DNA of 50,940 nucleotides. Source: Lentimicrobium sp. L6 (GTDB lineage: Bacteria > Bacteroidota > Bacteroidia > Bacteroidales > UBA12170). Positions 19,557 to 26,828 of this stretch are shown piece after piece. A program made the position numbers and the translations under genes. Each line of letters starts with the position of its first letter. Positions within the stretch are counted from its first letter, which is position 1. The stretch spans positions 1 to 50,940 of the forward strand of contig NZ_JABKCA010000037.1 in NCBI RefSeq assembly GCF_013166655.1, read 5' to 3'. The notes below the pieces were generated by a model that saw only the letters and a program-made list of their open reading frames with translations, ran no database searches and was not told where the DNA came from.

Positions 19557-19586
19557 TTGCTCGAATAAAAAAACCTCCTATATTTG
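19557..19586 (+). promoter_or_regulatory. Near-consensus promoter of the methionine operon leader
   Basis: TTG (19557-19559), 19 bases of spacer, then TATATTTG (19579-19586). This matches the Bacteroidota -33/-7 promoter with ideal spacing. The first leader ATG is 9 bases after the -7 box, leaving a 5' leader of only a few bases. Confidence 0.75.
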
Positions 19587-19595
19587 CCCCCAGAA

Positions 19596-19667
19596 ATGAA
19601 TAATCAAAATACAAATATGTCCATGATGATGCGTATGCAAAGCAACGTAAAGGGACGAATTGTATAA
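19596..19667 (+). CDS. Methionine-rich leader peptide 1 (putative attenuator)
   Basis: A 23-codon open reading frame starting just after the promoter. Met occupies positions 1, 8, 10, 11, 12 and 14, so six of 23 codons are ATG and five lie within seven residues. This is far above expectation. A terminator begins 26 bases after the stop. The codons after the Met cluster (19650-19657, AAGGGACG) can pair with CGCCCTT of the terminator stem (19693-19699) with one bulged A. This arrangement matches amino-acid operon leader peptides such as trpL and hisL, but for Met. The function is inferred from sequence and position before metY-metX-thrA. Confidence 0.75.
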   Translation: MNNQNTNMSMMMRMQSNVKGRIV

Positions 19668-19693
19668 AAAACATAAAACAGATATACAAAGAC

Positions 19694-19722
19694 GCCCTTG
19701 CCAAACAGCAGGGGCTTTTTTT
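19694..19722 (+). terminator. Attenuator terminator 1 of the met leader
   Basis: GCCCTTGC (19694-19701) pairs with GCAGGGGC (19708-19715) with one G-T wobble and a 6-base loop, followed by seven T (19716-19722). No gene stop lies just upstream except leader peptide 1, so this is a premature terminator of the met operon transcript. Confidence 0.8.
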
Positions 19723-19742
19723 ATGATTTAAATTTACAAGAG

Positions 19743-19835
19743 ATGAAAATAATAATGGCAAATACAATGATGATGAACATGTTTATGATGATGTATATGA
19801 TGATGCAACACATGCTCCGGTATTGCCTAAAATGA
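19743..19835 (+). CDS. Methionine-rich leader peptide 2 (putative attenuator)
   Basis: A 30-codon frame with Met at positions 1, 5, 9-11, 13, 15-17, 19-21 and 24: 13 of 30 residues, including three runs of three ATG codons. It reads MKIIMANTMMMNMFMMMYMM and then ten more residues. A strong terminator starts 22 bases after the stop. The bases right after the last Met (CGGTATTGCC, 19818-19827) can pair over ten positions, two of them G-T, with 19867-19876 inside the terminator. A ribosome stalled in the Met clusters leaves that segment free, while one reaching the stop covers it. A regulatory, not structural, peptide is inferred. Confidence 0.8.
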   Translation: MKIIMANTMMMNMFMMMYMMMQHMLRYCLK

Positions 19836-19856
19836 CAAATAAAAAGAATCTCTTTT

Positions 19857-19895
19857 AAGTCCCTTTGGTAATATCGAAACCAAAGGGACTTTTTT
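19857..19895 (+). terminator. Attenuator terminator 2 of the met leader
   Basis: A 13-bp perfect stem (19857-19869 with 19879-19891), loop of 9 bases, then a T-rich tract to 19900. The 5' arm segment GTCCCTTT (19859-19866) is also complementary to AAAGGGAC (19649-19656) in leader 1. The gene downstream, metY, starts 258 bases later. Confidence 0.88.
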
Positions 19896-20046
19896 ATTTT
19901 ATGGCAAAAGAAACTTTATCTTTTCGTTGGATTCGAATGAAATATCAGTCATTTACCACAGTAAACTCCTGAAATTTCATTCTTTATCCGCCTCAACCTA
20001 AAGCTTCTTTGCTCAAAAAATCATTACAGAAAATAGATTAATAAAC

Positions 20047-20069
20047 CTTGTCATAGTGCCGTAGTGGCC
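20047..20069 (+). repeat. Interspersed repeat copy 1 (TAGTGCC..AGTGGCC word)
   Basis: CTTGTCATAGTGCCGTAGTG followed by GCC, then an A-rich tail. A second copy lies 54 bases downstream and a related one precedes the aspartokinase gene. Copies share TAGTGCC-n-GTGG and a following AAACAAnATATA-like tail. Confidence 0.6.
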
Positions 20070-20100
20070 CAAAAACAAAATATATAAAACAAACAATATC

Positions 20101-20125
20101 CTTTGTGACATAGTGCCTAGTGGCC
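20101..20125 (+). repeat. Interspersed repeat copy 2
   Basis: CTTTGTGACATAGTGCCTAG followed by TGGCC, then an A-rich tail that runs into the metY start codon 33 bases later. It matches copy 1 with small changes. Confidence 0.6.
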
Positions 20126-20157
20126 AACAAACAAGAAATATAAAAAAATAAATAATA

Positions 20158-21432
20158 ATGGGAAATTTAAAAATAGCAAGCAAAGCTTTACATGCAGGAC
20201 ACGATACCAATTTAACTCAAGGAACCAGAGCTGTTCCTATTTATCAAACCACTTCTTATGTATTTAGAGATACAGAACATGCTTCCAATCTGTTTGAACT
20301 AAAAGAGCCAGGATATATTTATACCCGACTTAACAACCCAACCAACGATGTACTAGAACAAAGACTGGCACAAATAGAAGGTGGCATTGGAGCTGCGGTT
20401 TTTGCTTCTGGAACAGCCGCCATCTCTACTTGTCTGCTCACCTTACTACAAACTGGCGACCATATTGTTTCTTCAAGCAGTCTTTATGGTGGAACCTATA
20501 ATCTTCTCAATGTGACCCTCCCCCGTTTTGGTATTACTACCCAATTTGTAAATCCAGATCAAATAGAAAATTTTGAGGAGGCTATTCAAGAAAACACCAA
20601 AGCTATATTTATTGAATCTATCGGCAATCCGAAACTCGATGTTTTAGATATTGAAGCCATAGCGAAAGTGGCACAAGCACATCAGATTCCATTAATTGTA
20701 GACAATACAGTAGCTTCTCCTAGCCTATTAAACCCCATAAAACATGGAGCAAACTTAGTGATTCACTCCCTCACCAAATATATAGCTGGACAAGGAAATT
20801 CACTAGGCGGCATTGTGATTGATGCCGGAACTTTCGATTGGGCCAGTGGGAAATTCCCAGAGTTTACGGAGCCTTCCAAAGGATATCATGGTTTAATTTA
20901 TGCTGAAGTACTTGGCGAGGCCGCATTTATCACCAAATTAAGAATAGAAGGATTGAGAGATTATGGTGGAGCTTTAAGTCCATTGAGTGCTTTCCAAATC
21001 ATTCAAGGATTGGAAACCTTAGAAGTCAGAATTAAACAACATTCTAAAAATGCATTAGAATTGGCTGAGTGGTTAGAAAGCTTAGAGGAAGTAGCTTGGG
21101 TGAATTATCCTGGATTAAAGAATAATAAATACTATCCCTTAGCCCAAAAATATCTTCCCAAAGGTCAAAGCGGAATTGTCACTTTCGGATTAAAAGGAGG
21201 ATTTGAAGCCGCTAGAAAATTCACCGACAGCACTCAACTTTTCTCACTTCTAGCCAATATTGGCGATACTAAATCATTAATCATTCACCCTGCCAGCACC
21301 ACGCATCAACAGTTAACCGAAGAGCAACAAGAATCAACTGGTGTCACAAAAGATTTAATTCGATTGTCAGTTGGTTTAGAAGATATTGTAGATTTGAAAG
21401 CAGATATTGAACAAGCCATAAAGAAAATCTAA
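20158..21432 (+). CDS. metY: O-acetylhomoserine aminocarboxypropyltransferase (O-acetylhomoserine sulfhydrylase)
   Basis: A 424-residue PLP enzyme of the Cys/Met-metabolism family that makes homocysteine directly from O-acetylhomoserine and sulfide. Seen: KALHAGHDTN (start motif), YTRLNNPTNDVLEQRLAQIEGG, ASGTAAISTCLLTL, SLYGGTYNL, FIESIGNPKLDVLDIEAIA, DNTVASP, and the PLP lysine K207 in HSLTKYIAGQG. The 424-residue length and the SGTAA region fit MetY better than the shorter MetB/MetC/MetZ enzymes. It is followed by metX, whose start codon overlaps the metY stop by one base. Expression probably depends on read-through of the two leader terminators. Confidence 0.93.
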   Translation: MGNLKIASKALHAGHDTNLTQGTRAVPIYQTTSYVFRDTEHASNLFELKEPGYIYTRLNNPTNDVLEQRLAQIEGGIGAAVFASGTAAISTCLLTLLQTGDHIVSSSSLYGGTYNLLNVTLPRFGITTQFVNPDQIENFEEAIQENTKAIFIESIGNPKLDVLDIEAIAKVAQAHQIPLIVDNTVASPSLLNPIKHGANLVIHSLTKYIAGQGNSLGGIVIDAGTFDWASGKFPEFTEPSKGYHGLIYAEVLGEAAFITKLRIEGLRDYGGALSPLSAFQIIQGLETLEVRIKQHSKNALELAEWLESLEEVAWVNYPGLKNNKYYPLAQKYLPKGQSGIVTFGLKGGFEAARKFTDSTQLFSLLANIGDTKSLIIHPASTTHQQLTEEQQESTGVTKDLIRLSVGLEDIVDLKADIEQAIKKI

Positions 21433-22400
21433 TGAGACCCGAATTAATCAGCTATAAAATTAAAGATTTCACCACCTCAAGCGGGGTTCTTCTCAATGAG
21501 TTGAACCTCACTTATGAGGTTTTTGGAAAACCTTTACATACTGCACCAATAGTAGTAATTAATCACGCATTGACTGGAAACTCTGATGTTTTAAGTGAAG
21601 AAAAAGGCTGGTGGAAAACCATCATTGGAGAAAATAAACTCATTGATACAAACAAATACACCATTCTAGCTTTTAATATCCCTGGAAATGCCTACGATGA
21701 TTTAATTATAGAAAACTATAAAGATTTCACAACTCGAGATATTGCAAGCTTGTTTTTAGAAGCCATTGATGGTTTAAAGATAGAGAAGCTTTTTGCAGTC
21801 ATCGGAGGCTCTTTAGGAGGTGGAATCGCTTGGGAAATGGCAGTGTTAAAACCAAAACTCATTGAAAACTTAATCCCCGTGGCTTGTCATTGGCAAAGCT
21901 CCGATTGGATTATTGGTTTTAATGAAGTGCAAATGCAAATTTTAGAATTCACTGATAAGCCTTTAGAAATTGCTAGAATGATGGCCATGTTATTTTATAG
22001 AACACCGGCCAGTTTAGAGTCTAAATTCAACAGAAGCCAAACTGCAGATGGAAAATTATTCAATATTGAATCTTGGCTTCGGCATCATGGAAATAAATTA
22101 AATGGCCGCTTTGAGGTTTCTGCCTATCGCTTGATGACTCATTTATTAACCACACTTGATATCACCAGCCATTTTGAGAATTTTGAGGAGGCTGTTAAAG
22201 AAATCGAGTCCAATATTATTCAAGTAGCTGTAGATACAGATTGGATATTTGTGAAGGATGAGACCATCGAGACCAAAAACAAGTTGGACAAGTTGGAGAT
22301 TAAAAACGAATACCATGAAATAAAATCCATACATGGCCACGATGCTTTCTTAATTGAATTTGAGCAACTTGAAAGTTTCTTGAAACCCATATTCAAATAG
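21432..22400 (+). CDS. metX: Homoserine O-acetyltransferase
   Basis: A 322-residue alpha/beta-hydrolase-fold acyltransferase that activates homoserine for homocysteine synthesis. Seen: LTYEVFGKPL, the oxyanion segment VVINHALTGNSDVL, NIPGNAYDD, the nucleophile elbow VIGGSLGGGIAWEMAV with Ser127, the Asp in VAVDTDWIF and His303 in IHGHDAFLIEF. At 322 residues it is a little shorter than typical MetX (about 350-380), mostly in the lid. Whether it uses acetyl- or succinyl-CoA cannot be told, but the partner MetY favours acetyl. Overlaps metY by one base. Confidence 0.9.
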   Translation: MRPELISYKIKDFTTSSGVLLNELNLTYEVFGKPLHTAPIVVINHALTGNSDVLSEEKGWWKTIIGENKLIDTNKYTILAFNIPGNAYDDLIIENYKDFTTRDIASLFLEAIDGLKIEKLFAVIGGSLGGGIAWEMAVLKPKLIENLIPVACHWQSSDWIIGFNEVQMQILEFTDKPLEIARMMAMLFYRTPASLESKFNRSQTADGKLFNIESWLRHHGNKLNGRFEVSAYRLMTHLLTTLDITSHFENFEEAVKEIESNIIQVAVDTDWIFVKDETIETKNKLDKLEIKNEYHEIKSIHGHDAFLIEFEQLESFLKPIFK

Positions 22401-22495: not shown

Positions 22496-24913
22496 ATGAA
22501 AATAATAAAATTCGGAGGGAAATCCCTCTCCAACGGAACCGGAATAAATGCTGTAATCAGCATCATACAAAATAAAATTAATAATAATGAGAAGTTTGTC
22601 GTTATAGTTTCTGCTAGAGGAAACGCCACAGATGAACTAGAAAACATCTTAGAACTAGCCAAACAAGGAAAGGAATATAAAACGCAATGGCAAGAATTTA
22701 AAAGTTACCAAATTTCACCTGCTCCTGCTATAGATTTCAGCAAAGAATTCCAGCTATTAGAAAAAATATTCGAAGGCGTTCAATTATTAGAGGAAGTGAG
22801 TTTAAAAATAAAAGACCTCGTATTAGCCCAAGGTGAATTACTCGCTGCCAAAATGATATCGAAGCTTCTAAATGACAAAGGAATTAAGGCAAAAAACATT
22901 GATAGCAGAAAAATTATTGTCACTGATGAGCAATATGGAAATGCAGTTGTCTTAGAAGAAGAATCAAAAAAAAGATGTCAAACTTTCATCGATGAATTAG
23001 AAGAAAACACCTTGGCTATTCTTACTGGTTTCATTGCCAATAATGAACAAGGTTCTACCACCACTTTGGGGAGAAATGGCAGCAATTATTCAGCTGCATT
23101 ATTTGCCAATTTCCTAAATGCAGAAGAATTACAAAACTATACACATGTAGATGGAATATACACTGCCAATCCTGATTTAGTAGAAGAGGCAAGAATTATT
23201 GATCAAATCAGCTTTCAAGAAGCCAATGAATTGGCCAGTTTTGGAGCTTCCATTTTACATGCCAAAACCATTATTCCACTTATTGAGAAAAACATTCCCC
23301 TTAGAATCCTCAACACTTTTAATTCTGAAAGCAAAGGAACACTCATCTGTAGGAATGGTCAGAAAAAAGGTGTAAAATCCATTTCTGTAAAATCAGGAGT
23401 GAGTCTGATTAATTTGGAAGGAAAAGGCTTATTGGGGAAAATAGGTGTAGATGCAAGAATATTCAACACTTTAGGAAGAGAAAATATTAATATAGGTGTC
23501 ATTTCCCAAGGAAGTTCAGAAAGAGGAATTGGATTTGTGGTAAATAGTAAAGATGACGACAGAGCAGTAAAATCTCTCCGTAAAGAATTTTCAAATGATT
23601 TTTCCAATAAAGATGTGAGCAATATCACTACCATTAATGATGTATCGGTGGTTAGTATTGTGGGTCAAAATTTACAAGGCTTTTCAAAACCCTATCAATC
23701 TTTGGTGAAAAATAATATTGAAATTCTATTGATTAATAATAATATTTCGGGGAATAATATCAGCTTATTAATCGATAACCAGCAGGTTCACAAAGCCATC
23801 AACATTATTCATTCTCAGATATTTGGGGTAGCTAAGAATATAAATATCGCTATTTTTGGAAAAGGAACAGTGGGCGGAAGTTTAATTGAACAGATTTTAA
23901 AAAGCCAAGAACAAATCTTAAGGAGAAAAGAAACTCGTCTAAATATTTTCGCGGTTGCCGGAAGTAAAAACCTTCTTCTCCAAAAAGAGGGCATTGGAAA
24001 TAATTGGAAATCTGAATTTAAGAATGCTAAGCAAACAAAAGATTCTATCAAAGAAGTTATTGCCTTTGCTGAACAACATCATTTAGAGAATTTAATAGCC
24101 ATTGATAATACTGCTTCTAGCGAATTTATCAAAAGCTATCCCCTCTTGATTGAGAATGGATTCGATTTGGTTTCCTCCAATAAAATAGCCAATACTGTAG
24201 GTTTTGATTTCTATAAATCATTAAGGAAAGAATTGAAGACTCATAACAAACAATATTTATACGAAACCAATGTGGGCGCAGGTTTACCGCTCATCGATAC
24301 CATCAAACTATTACACGATTCCGGAGAGAATATCACCAGAATTAAAGGCGTATTTTCAGGCTCACTGAGTTATATTTTTAATGCTTTTTCTGAATCTGAA
24401 GAAAGCTTCTCAAGCATTGTGAAACAAGCCATGGAAAAAGGATTTACAGAACCTGACCCAAGAGAAGATTTATGTGGAAACGATGTGGCTCGTAAATTAC
24501 TCATTTTGGCTCGTGAACTCGATTTGGAAAATGAACTAGACGAAGTTCAAATTAGAAACCTCATTCCTGAAAACTTAAGAGGAGGCCAAGTGGATAACTT
24601 CCTCCAAAGAATTGAAGAATTAGACCATCCTTTTGAATTACTAAAAGAAGCACAAGAAAAAGACCATGTTCTCAGGTATGTGGGCGATTTACATGGCGAC
24701 CTTCAACAAAGCAAAGGTGAGTTGGATGTGAGTTTGGTAAGTGTCCCAAAAAACAGCGCTTTAGGCCAATTGAGCGGAAGTAATTCCATCTTCGAAATCT
24801 ATACCGAAAGCTATGGGGAGAACCCAATTGTGATCCAAGGAGCCGGTGCTGGTGCGGCAGTAACTGCCCGTGGTGTATTTGGTGATTTGTTGAGGATTGC
24901 TGAGAAGAGGTAG
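22496..24913 (+). CDS. thrA: Bifunctional aspartate kinase / homoserine dehydrogenase
   Basis: An 805-residue fused enzyme catalysing steps one and three from aspartate to homoserine. The kinase half begins KIIKFGGKSL and has FVVIVSARGNATDELENIL, TTTLGRNGSNYSAALFAN and THVDGIYTANPDLV. An ACT-type regulatory region follows (about residues 300-450: INLEGKGLLGKIGVDARIF, VSIVGQNLQGF). The dehydrogenase half starts NIAIFGKGTVGGSLIEQIL (about residue 456), with SSNKIANT, ETNVGAGLPLIDTIK, GVFSGSLSYIFNAFSES and EPDPREDLCGNDVARKLL. Placement with metY and metX argues for a methionine-directed isozyme (metL-like); which amino acid inhibits it is unknown. Confidence 0.95.
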   Translation: MKIIKFGGKSLSNGTGINAVISIIQNKINNNEKFVVIVSARGNATDELENILELAKQGKEYKTQWQEFKSYQISPAPAIDFSKEFQLLEKIFEGVQLLEEVSLKIKDLVLAQGELLAAKMISKLLNDKGIKAKNIDSRKIIVTDEQYGNAVVLEEESKKRCQTFIDELEENTLAILTGFIANNEQGSTTTLGRNGSNYSAALFANFLNAEELQNYTHVDGIYTANPDLVEEARIIDQISFQEANELASFGASILHAKTIIPLIEKNIPLRILNTFNSESKGTLICRNGQKKGVKSISVKSGVSLINLEGKGLLGKIGVDARIFNTLGRENINIGVISQGSSERGIGFVVNSKDDDRAVKSLRKEFSNDFSNKDVSNITTINDVSVVSIVGQNLQGFSKPYQSLVKNNIEILLINNNISGNNISLLIDNQQVHKAINIIHSQIFGVAKNINIAIFGKGTVGGSLIEQILKSQEQILRRKETRLNIFAVAGSKNLLLQKEGIGNNWKSEFKNAKQTKDSIKEVIAFAEQHHLENLIAIDNTASSEFIKSYPLLIENGFDLVSSNKIANTVGFDFYKSLRKELKTHNKQYLYETNVGAGLPLIDTIKLLHDSGENITRIKGVFSGSLSYIFNAFSESEESFSSIVKQAMEKGFTEPDPREDLCGNDVARKLLILARELDLENELDEVQIRNLIPENLRGGQVDNFLQRIEELDHPFELLKEAQEKDHVLRYVGDLHGDLQQSKGELDVSLVSVPKNSALGQLSGSNSIFEIYTESYGENPIVIQGAGAGAAVTARGVFGDLLRIAEKR

Positions 24914-26651: not shown

Positions 26652-26667
26652 CAACGTAATAAAAAAA

Positions 26668-26788
26668 TTCTTCAGGGCAGGGTGTAATTCCCGACCGGCG
26701 GTGATAGTCCGCGACTCATGACGATAATCGTCACGATTGATTTGGTGAAATTCCAATACCGACAGTAAAGTCTGGATGATAGAAGAAG
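26668..26788 (+). promoter_or_regulatory. FMN riboswitch (RFN element)
   Basis: The conserved RFN landmarks occur in order: TTCTTC (P1 5' side, 26668-26673), AGGGCAGGGTGTAATTCCCG, ACCGGCGGTGATAGTCCGCG, a variable hairpin (ATGACGATAATCGTCA), TTGATTTGGTGAAATTCCAA, ACCGACAGTAAAGTCTGGAT and GAAGAA closing P1 (26782-26787). FMN binding switches off the riboflavin genes. Together with the terminator at 26829-26861 it controls ribD-ribE-ribBA-ribH. Confidence 0.97.
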
Positions 26789-26828
26789 ATTTACAGATGA
26801 ATAGCCTATTTTGGCTTTTCTTTGCACT

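Follow-up and report, generated by a model that had tools for sequence, protein, structure and literature searches.

Two candidate methionine-codon attenuators in series ahead of the metY-metX-thrA operon of Lentimicrobium sp. L6

The metY-metX-thrA operon of Lentimicrobium sp. L6 is preceded by two very short open reading frames (ORFs) crowded with methionine codons, each followed by an intrinsic terminator, which raises the question of whether the operon is governed by leader-peptide attenuation. Methionine operons are known to be controlled by riboswitches, T-boxes and repressors, and to our knowledge none of the textbook leader-peptide attenuators reads AUG codons. We analyzed the window, that is, the whole stretch of 50,940 nucleotides that holds this locus, together with related loci from other genomes. 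Our results suggest, with a probability of roughly 0.88, that metY-metX-thrA is controlled by two ribosome-mediated transcription attenuators of the trp/his type, arranged in series and sensing methionine supply.

To begin with the ORFs, only two in the window combine a length of 10 to 60 codons with a Met content of 6 or more residues and no less than 25%, namely ORF1 and ORF2 (Table 1), against an average of 0.02 in 200 shuffled windows. Among 2000 shuffles of the 719-nt intergenic region, one such ORF arose in 1 and two in none, and 13 Met were reached in none; moreover, all 13 Met of ORF2 are present in the related locus L006 as well. Chance or low-complexity ATG repeats as the source of the ORFs are thus ruled out by the shuffles and by conservation, and the two Met-rich frames claimed in a preliminary description of this DNA, with their Met counts and three triplet runs, hold at their positions. 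The same search on both strands of all collected loci returned 37 ORFs, which belong to leader cassettes (ORF plus terminator) except those in L023 and L068, with some cassettes counted repeatedly owing to overlapping loci. A host-genome search with one Met-run pattern gave 15 matches, 3 of them inside ORF1 and ORF2 and the rest, judged by eye, in very short or unremarkable frames.

The promoter ahead of ORF1 is of the Bacteroidota type (TTG and TATATTTG, judged by what we take to be the consensus for this phylum) and does not appear in the sigma-70 scan listing of this DNA. TAnnTTTG occurs once between 19440 and 20157, 5' of ORF1. Such an element lies within 60 nt upstream of the first-leader ATG in 35 of 39 loci, compared with 364 of 7800 random 57-nt windows from the same loci. 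The first leader starts 5-21 nt past the element in 33 of the 39, suggesting that it would be translated almost from the 5' end of the RNA. Both terminators are supported by their hairpins, T runs and folding energies; a simple terminator scan misses terminator 2 because its loop is 9 nt and the scan maximum is 8. Downstream, metY, metX and thrA jointly lead to homocysteine, the methionine precursor, so that the operon makes the amino acid that would be sensed; the assignment of metX is a best match below the cut-off. The promoter, the terminators and the homocysteine operon of the preliminary description are therefore all confirmed, as is its statement that the leader contains no SAM riboswitch, because neither a riboswitch aptamer nor a T-box was matched there at Rfam gathering score, and both were rejected as the leader regulator at this score. 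At Rfam gathering score the window as a whole gives a single match, an FMN riboswitch (26664-26791, 114 bits), directly 5' of ribD at 26811 (TIGR00326, over cut-off).

Table 1. Features of the leader region and operon in the window, with antiterminators as predicted from the sequence
Feature	Positions	Strand	Details
Promoter, Bacteroidota type	19557-19586	+	TTG 19557-19559, TATATTTG 19579-19586, 9 nt 5' of ORF1 ATG
Leader ORF 1	19596-19667	+	MNNQNTNMSMMMRMQSNVKGRIV; Met 6 of 23 codons; counterparts in relatives
Antiterminator 1, 5' strand	19650-19666	+	AAGGG.CG..TTGTATA, within ORF1 end
Antiterminator 1, 3' strand	19683-19699	+	TATACAA...CG.CCCTT, extends into terminator 1 5' arm
Intrinsic terminator 1	19694-19722	+	hairpin 19694-19715, T run to 19722; -15.2 kcal/mol
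Leader ORF 2	19743-19835	+	MKIIMANTMMMNMFMMMYMMMQHMLRYCLK; Met 13 of 30 codons, three MMM runs
Antiterminator 2, 5' strand	19818-19831	+	CGGTATTGCC.AAA, within ORF2 end
Intrinsic terminator 2	19857-19895	+	perfect 13-nt arms 19857-19869/19879-19891, 9-nt loop, T run; -19.8 kcal/mol
Antiterminator 2, 3' strand	19864-19876	+	TTTGGTAATATCG, terminator 2 upper stem and loop
Spacer, terminator 2 to metY	19896-20157	+	AT-rich inverted repeat 19935-19982, two short-repeat copies
metY, O-acetylhomoserine sulfhydrylase	20158-21432	+	TIGR01326, 639 bits, over cut-off
metX, homoserine O-acetyltransferase	21432-22400	+	best match TIGR01392, 208 bits, below curated cut-off
thrA, bifunctional aspartate kinase/homoserine dehydrogenase	22496-24913	+	NF006959, 777 bits, over cut-off

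The spacer between terminator 2 and metY is probably not part of the switch. In 12 of 16 loci terminator 2 ends no more than 45 nt away from metY, and the inverted repeat in the spacer recurs as partial copies at three further sites of the host genome (83-91% identity over 33-40 nt), which make it probably a dispersed repeat. An extra regulatory element between terminator 2 and metY is accordingly disfavored. A short repeat, TGWCATAGTGCC, has copies at 20049-20060 and 20106-20117 upstream of metY, and a stretch resembling it was seen by eye ahead of metY and elsewhere in L006. A 24-base consensus of this repeat, with up to three mismatches allowed, has no match in the window and misses even its own two sites.

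In both cassettes, the last part of the ORF can base-pair with the 5' side of the terminator that follows it. For cassette 2, the nascent RNA (19804-19879) folds at -17.7 kcal/mol. We aligned this cassette from 16 loci collected without any RNA model, and found that 98.6% of the cells in a nine-pair helix are paired, with changes on both sides at three of the nine pairs, whereas controls in which the helix was slid gave 27-62%. The covariation score was reached by none of 500 shuffles and the number of doubly changed pairs by 12 of 500. In a wider set of 27 anchored rows out of 70 cassettes, pair 1 occurs as G-C, C-G, T-A and A-T, and all nine pairs are formed in 25 of the 27 loci, against 149 of 602 combinations with terminators swapped between loci. 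It should be borne in mind that 21 of the 39 cassette loci were found through model R1, which includes the cassette 2 helix, so that their cassette 2 pairing is partly selected; the remaining 18 comprise the window and 17 loci that were identified from the MetY protein alone. The loop of terminator 2 is also conserved, a constraint that the antiterminator helix would impose and the terminator stem would not.

For cassette 1, the antiterminator in the window consists of 5 bp (AAGGG/CCCTT) and an inner stem (TTGTATA/TATACAA), with the nascent RNA at -11.1 kcal/mol. Among 17 loci, 90% of the cells of this antiterminator are paired, as are 100% of those of the terminator helix, and 1 of 500 shuffles attained the covariation score. 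One pair shows a double change, in six sequences; neither the number of doubly changed pairs (1) nor that of pair types (4) exceeds the shuffles. ORF tail, 5' arm and 3' arm co-vary at two positions, as seen in CAAAGG/CCTTTG/CAAAGG, CAGAGG/CCTCTG/CAGAGG and CAGCGG/CCGCTG/CAGCGG. With the strand anchored at a constant spacing from the stop codon, 33 cassettes divide evenly into six pairs (11), five pairs (11) and four or fewer (11); 34 cassettes were tried, L119 having no motif, and some rows were mis-anchored so that the strand was missed. The compensatory changes that the preliminary description had put forward as a check are hence present between ORF tails and terminators. Its suggestion of a duplication fares worse: the antiterminator and terminator motifs of the two cassettes differ and each recurs in other genera, so the pair does not resemble a recent duplication of one cassette, and this origin is not favored.

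We compared these folds with shuffles of the ORF tails. When the nascent RNA is folded as far as the terminator loop, 67 of 70 cassettes are more stable than at least 95 of 100 tail shuffles, the exceptions being L014 cassette 1, L138 cassette 2 and L106; these statistics use a fixed start, and a version begun at the best helix was biased and set aside. Of the second or single cassettes, 37 of 39 have a helix score above the 95th percentile of their own tail shuffles; of the first cassettes, 13 of 31 do. Sequence support for the antiterminator thus appears strong for cassette 2 and weaker per locus for cassette 1. At least five pairs between tail and terminator arm are found in all 70 leaders, but also in 62% of the tail shuffles and at 25 of 60 ordinary gene ends, and this count was therefore rejected as sole proof.

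The geometry is consistent with a ribosome-controlled switch. From the end of the pairing strand to the stop codon there are 8-14 nt in 26 of 31 first cassettes; for second or single cassettes the figure is 2-16 nt in 38 of 39. At least three Met or Cys codons lie at least 15 nt upstream of the strand in 66 of 70 cassettes. Taking the customary size of the ribosome footprint, the pairing strand would be hidden beneath a ribosome that has reached the stop codon and left exposed by one halted in the Met cluster. The 70 cassettes, which had been selected for Met/Cys richness, contain 376 Met and 143 Cys among 1882 leader codons after the start. The minimum-energy fold of the whole leader is the terminator at every ribosome stall position tried, and the switch must therefore be kinetic.

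The DNA itself thus displays the ORFs, the terminators, the promoter motif, the alternative helices, their coevolution and the gene context, and with them the marks of a trp/his-type attenuator: a codon-rich leader ORF, a terminator, an antiterminator that excludes it, a suitable geometry and a biosynthetic operon. The attenuation layout of the preliminary description gains support from antiterminators that had escaped it, while attenuation itself continues to be deduced from sequence. We infer the rest, namely where transcription starts, that the ORFs are translated, that ribosomes stall in them, that the cell's transcripts are terminated or antiterminated accordingly, and which signal is read, and propose the following scheme. 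Transcription would start only a few nucleotides upstream of ORF1. With ample methionyl-tRNA, a translating ribosome would clear the Met codons, reach the stop codon and cover the ORF end, and the following terminator would form and stop transcription. When methionine is short, the ribosome would stall in the Met clusters and leave the ORF end free to pair with the 5' side of the terminator before the 3' arm is made, allowing RNA polymerase to continue. The decision would be repeated at ORF2, and the full operon transcript would be made only past both terminators. The preliminary description regarded the system as specific to methionine, and this suits the Met-rich leaders of the window, but many relatives use Met and Cys codons; in those with added Cys codons, the signal is probably the supply of both sulfur amino acids.

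Could the ribosome instead be stalled by the nascent peptide, with a Met-rich chain responding to a small molecule such as S-adenosylmethionine (SAM) rather than to uncharged tRNA? The biased composition of the leader frames and the constraint on their downstream ends would agree with this. An arrest peptide is expected to keep a motif, however, and the upstream parts of the leaders vary between genera in sequence, spacing and length beyond Met and Cys; the RNA helix already explains the conserved tail; and a stall caused by abundant SAM would turn the operon on in times of plenty, which is the wrong sign. We consider this explanation very unlikely.

To see how widely the leaders occur, we examined a metY set of 85 loci (80 relatives, four relatives from the host genus, and the window itself). 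In 19 of them a Met/Cys-rich ORF with a terminator behind it lies upstream of metY, so that the comparative check proposed at the outset, for Met-rich ORFs with terminators upstream of met genes, succeeds in that they recur before metY in other Bacteroidota. Both cassettes are present in 16 of the 19 (the window, L006-L016, L018, L078, L085 and L088). The tandem carriers include the host genus, Lutibacter, other Flavobacteriaceae, Kordia and a Bacteroidales MAG, and the tandem recurs in further genera of several families; a single cassette is found in L083 and L084 (Flavobacterium) and L082 (Flavicella). Behind the single cassette of L083, past 2883, a second short Cys-rich ORF without a terminator was seen by eye, and may be what is left of a decayed second cassette.

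Within the host genus, model R1 hits 5 of 11 genomes, and it is precisely these five in which this metY is found at E 1e-100. Samples of wider groups, which overlap, contain hits in 5 of 393 genomes (order), 32 of 397 (the family to which L016 belongs), 8 of 395 (class) and 13 of 395 (phylum); because the filters are stricter for large samples, these counts are lower bounds. Leaders are present at 4 of the 5 matches in the order (the host's own, L104, L105 and L106), G235 being a bare terminator by eye; at 25 of the 32 in the family, with 5 bare terminators and the remaining 2 left out (G539 is counted via L149, whose coordinates are identical to G868); at 5 of the 8 in the class, with 3 bare terminators; and at 11 of the 13 in the phylum, where L180 is a bare terminator and L178 was assigned to neither group. 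The host-genus match L103 is, by eye, also a bare terminator without a leader. For L117, L142-L149 and L171-L181 the examination covered the ORFs and the next gene.

Nearly all the leaders found precede metY or a few mostly sulfur-related genes. One lies before a metX-like gene (L119) and one before a homoserine dehydrogenase fragment (L173). Others precede OsmC-like genes (L127, L143 and L145, and L131 below cut-off), which suggests a role of these OsmC-like proteins in sulfur metabolism. In L181, two Met/Cys-rich ORFs precede an EamA-family transporter about 0.9 kb from the metY leader and divergent to it on the same contig; this protein is perhaps a Met or Cys transporter. L106 has a Cys/Met-rich leader ORF and terminator (1410-1520) upstream of glutamyl-tRNA reductase, and a further frame there resembles the N-terminal domain of siroheme synthase, below cut-off. 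It is also evident that the window MetY shares 77-79% identity with its counterparts in the Lutibacter-labelled loci, compared with 67-69% for PyrG in the four Lutibacter-type genomes searched, and that this metY is missing from 6 of 11 host-genus genomes, some of them incomplete; from these identities and the patchy distribution, the operon and its switch may move horizontally.

This gene context also bears on whether the ORFs encode working Met/Cys-rich peptides, for example metal-binding ones, with terminators that just end their transcripts and metY read from another promoter. Such ORFs do recur across families and the terminators are strong, but the peptides vary outside Met and Cys between genera, the ORF ends coevolve with the terminators, and the leaders keep almost exclusively to metY and the few genes above. 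In addition, as far as promoters of the TAnnTTTG type are concerned, the sole one from 19440 to metY precedes ORF1. This explanation is slightly less credible still than that of an arrest peptide.

Returning to the attenuators, we compared their position with that of the SAM-I riboswitch. At the metY loci of the 80 relatives, SAM-I lies just upstream in 63, Met/Cys leaders in 14, both in 0 and neither in 3 (L039, L066 and L069; the 5' region of L069 matches model R1 at 43.8 bits). On the best reading, the leader switch would stand in some relatives where others have SAM-I. The host genome has a SAM-I riboswitch before metH, which was counted against the best reading. SAM-I is found just downstream of metY in L014, L015, L016, L018, L039 and L069, in L016 ahead of a metX-like frame. 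The Lutibacter loci L014, L015, L016 and L018 have Met leaders before metY and SAM-I after it (4352, 4363, 4350 and 3835, respectively), giving two sensors in one gene cluster. SAM-II lies on the opposite strand upstream of many metY loci (e.g., L016 1989-2048, minus strand, before a metK-like frame), and thus adjoins SAM-I or Met leaders in many of them. The least probable of the alternatives, that the Met clusters are clustered AUG starts whose repeated initiation couples translation to transcription without sensing methionine, draws on AUG being both start and Met codon and on the plentiful runs such as ATGATGATG in the leaders, but is very unlikely because the enriched codons of relatives include Cys, which is not a start codon, and because SAM-I in the same position at other metY loci favors sensing of a pathway product.

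Beyond this locus, we lean towards the view that Bacteroidota have an old class of sulfur-amino-acid leader attenuators of their own, made of two non-identical switches in series that trade places with SAM-I before metY and serve a small regulon (metY, metX, homoserine dehydrogenase, OsmC-like genes, the EamA transporter and possibly hemA), and that the two leaders, which differ in Met codon number and helix strength, may together sense Met-tRNA charging with two thresholds or multiplicatively. With an apparent charged-tRNA sensor replacing a SAM sensor at the same gene, the question of what methionine control should sense becomes directly testable. A tandem attenuator is moreover a natural test of attenuation-sensitivity theory, an example of which is given in part of Elf and Ehrenberg 2005 (PMC1183508), because AUG is the sole Met codon and ORF2 is packed with it.

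Attenuators are reportedly predicted in further phyla by earlier comparative work of the Lyubetsky group. The remark that methionine attenuation is not a textbook system agrees with the open-licence full text in PubMed Central, in which we found no methionine leader-peptide attenuator, though subscription papers may hold one. No methionine leader appears in the relevant parts of Seliverstov et al. 2005 (PMC1262725), of Naville and Gautheret 2010 (PMC2965389) or of a 2016 paper on leader peptides and reinitiation (PMC4833913). Part of a transcriptome paper on B. thetaiotaomicron (PMC7366714) describes short ORFs in 5' UTRs as reminiscent of attenuation leaders, in that part not linked to methionine.

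The comparison with known systems can be made as follows. The Met T-box senses Met-tRNA charging and controls met genes; it binds the tRNA directly without an ORF, unlike the leaders of the window, where no T-box is matched at gathering score. SAM-I (S-box, RF00162), which occupies the corresponding position 5' of metY at 63 of the 80 related loci, senses SAM directly, whereas this leader has no aptamer at Rfam gathering score. Cys-rich leader ORFs before cys operons of Mycobacterium and Propionibacterium, described in part of Seliverstov et al. 2005 (PMC1262725), share with ours an ORF rich in codons for a sulfur amino acid before sulfur genes, but in that account they have no conserved terminator, unlike the window leaders; the same section reports no conserved upstream RNA structure for methionine operons of Actinobacteria. 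Closest are the trp, his, leu, ilv, thr and phe attenuators of Proteobacteria and Actinobacteria and that of hisS in Bacilli, which likewise have a leader ORF rich in codons for the product, a terminator, an antiterminator and a biosynthetic operon; according to part of Naville and Gautheret 2010 (PMC2965389), hisS in Bacilli was to their knowledge the first to be demonstrated in bacteria other than Proteobacteria and Actinobacteria. Compared with these, the candidate attenuators here read Met codons (Met and Cys in relatives), place the antiterminator strand within the ORF end, form two complete switches in series and belong to the Bacteroidota.
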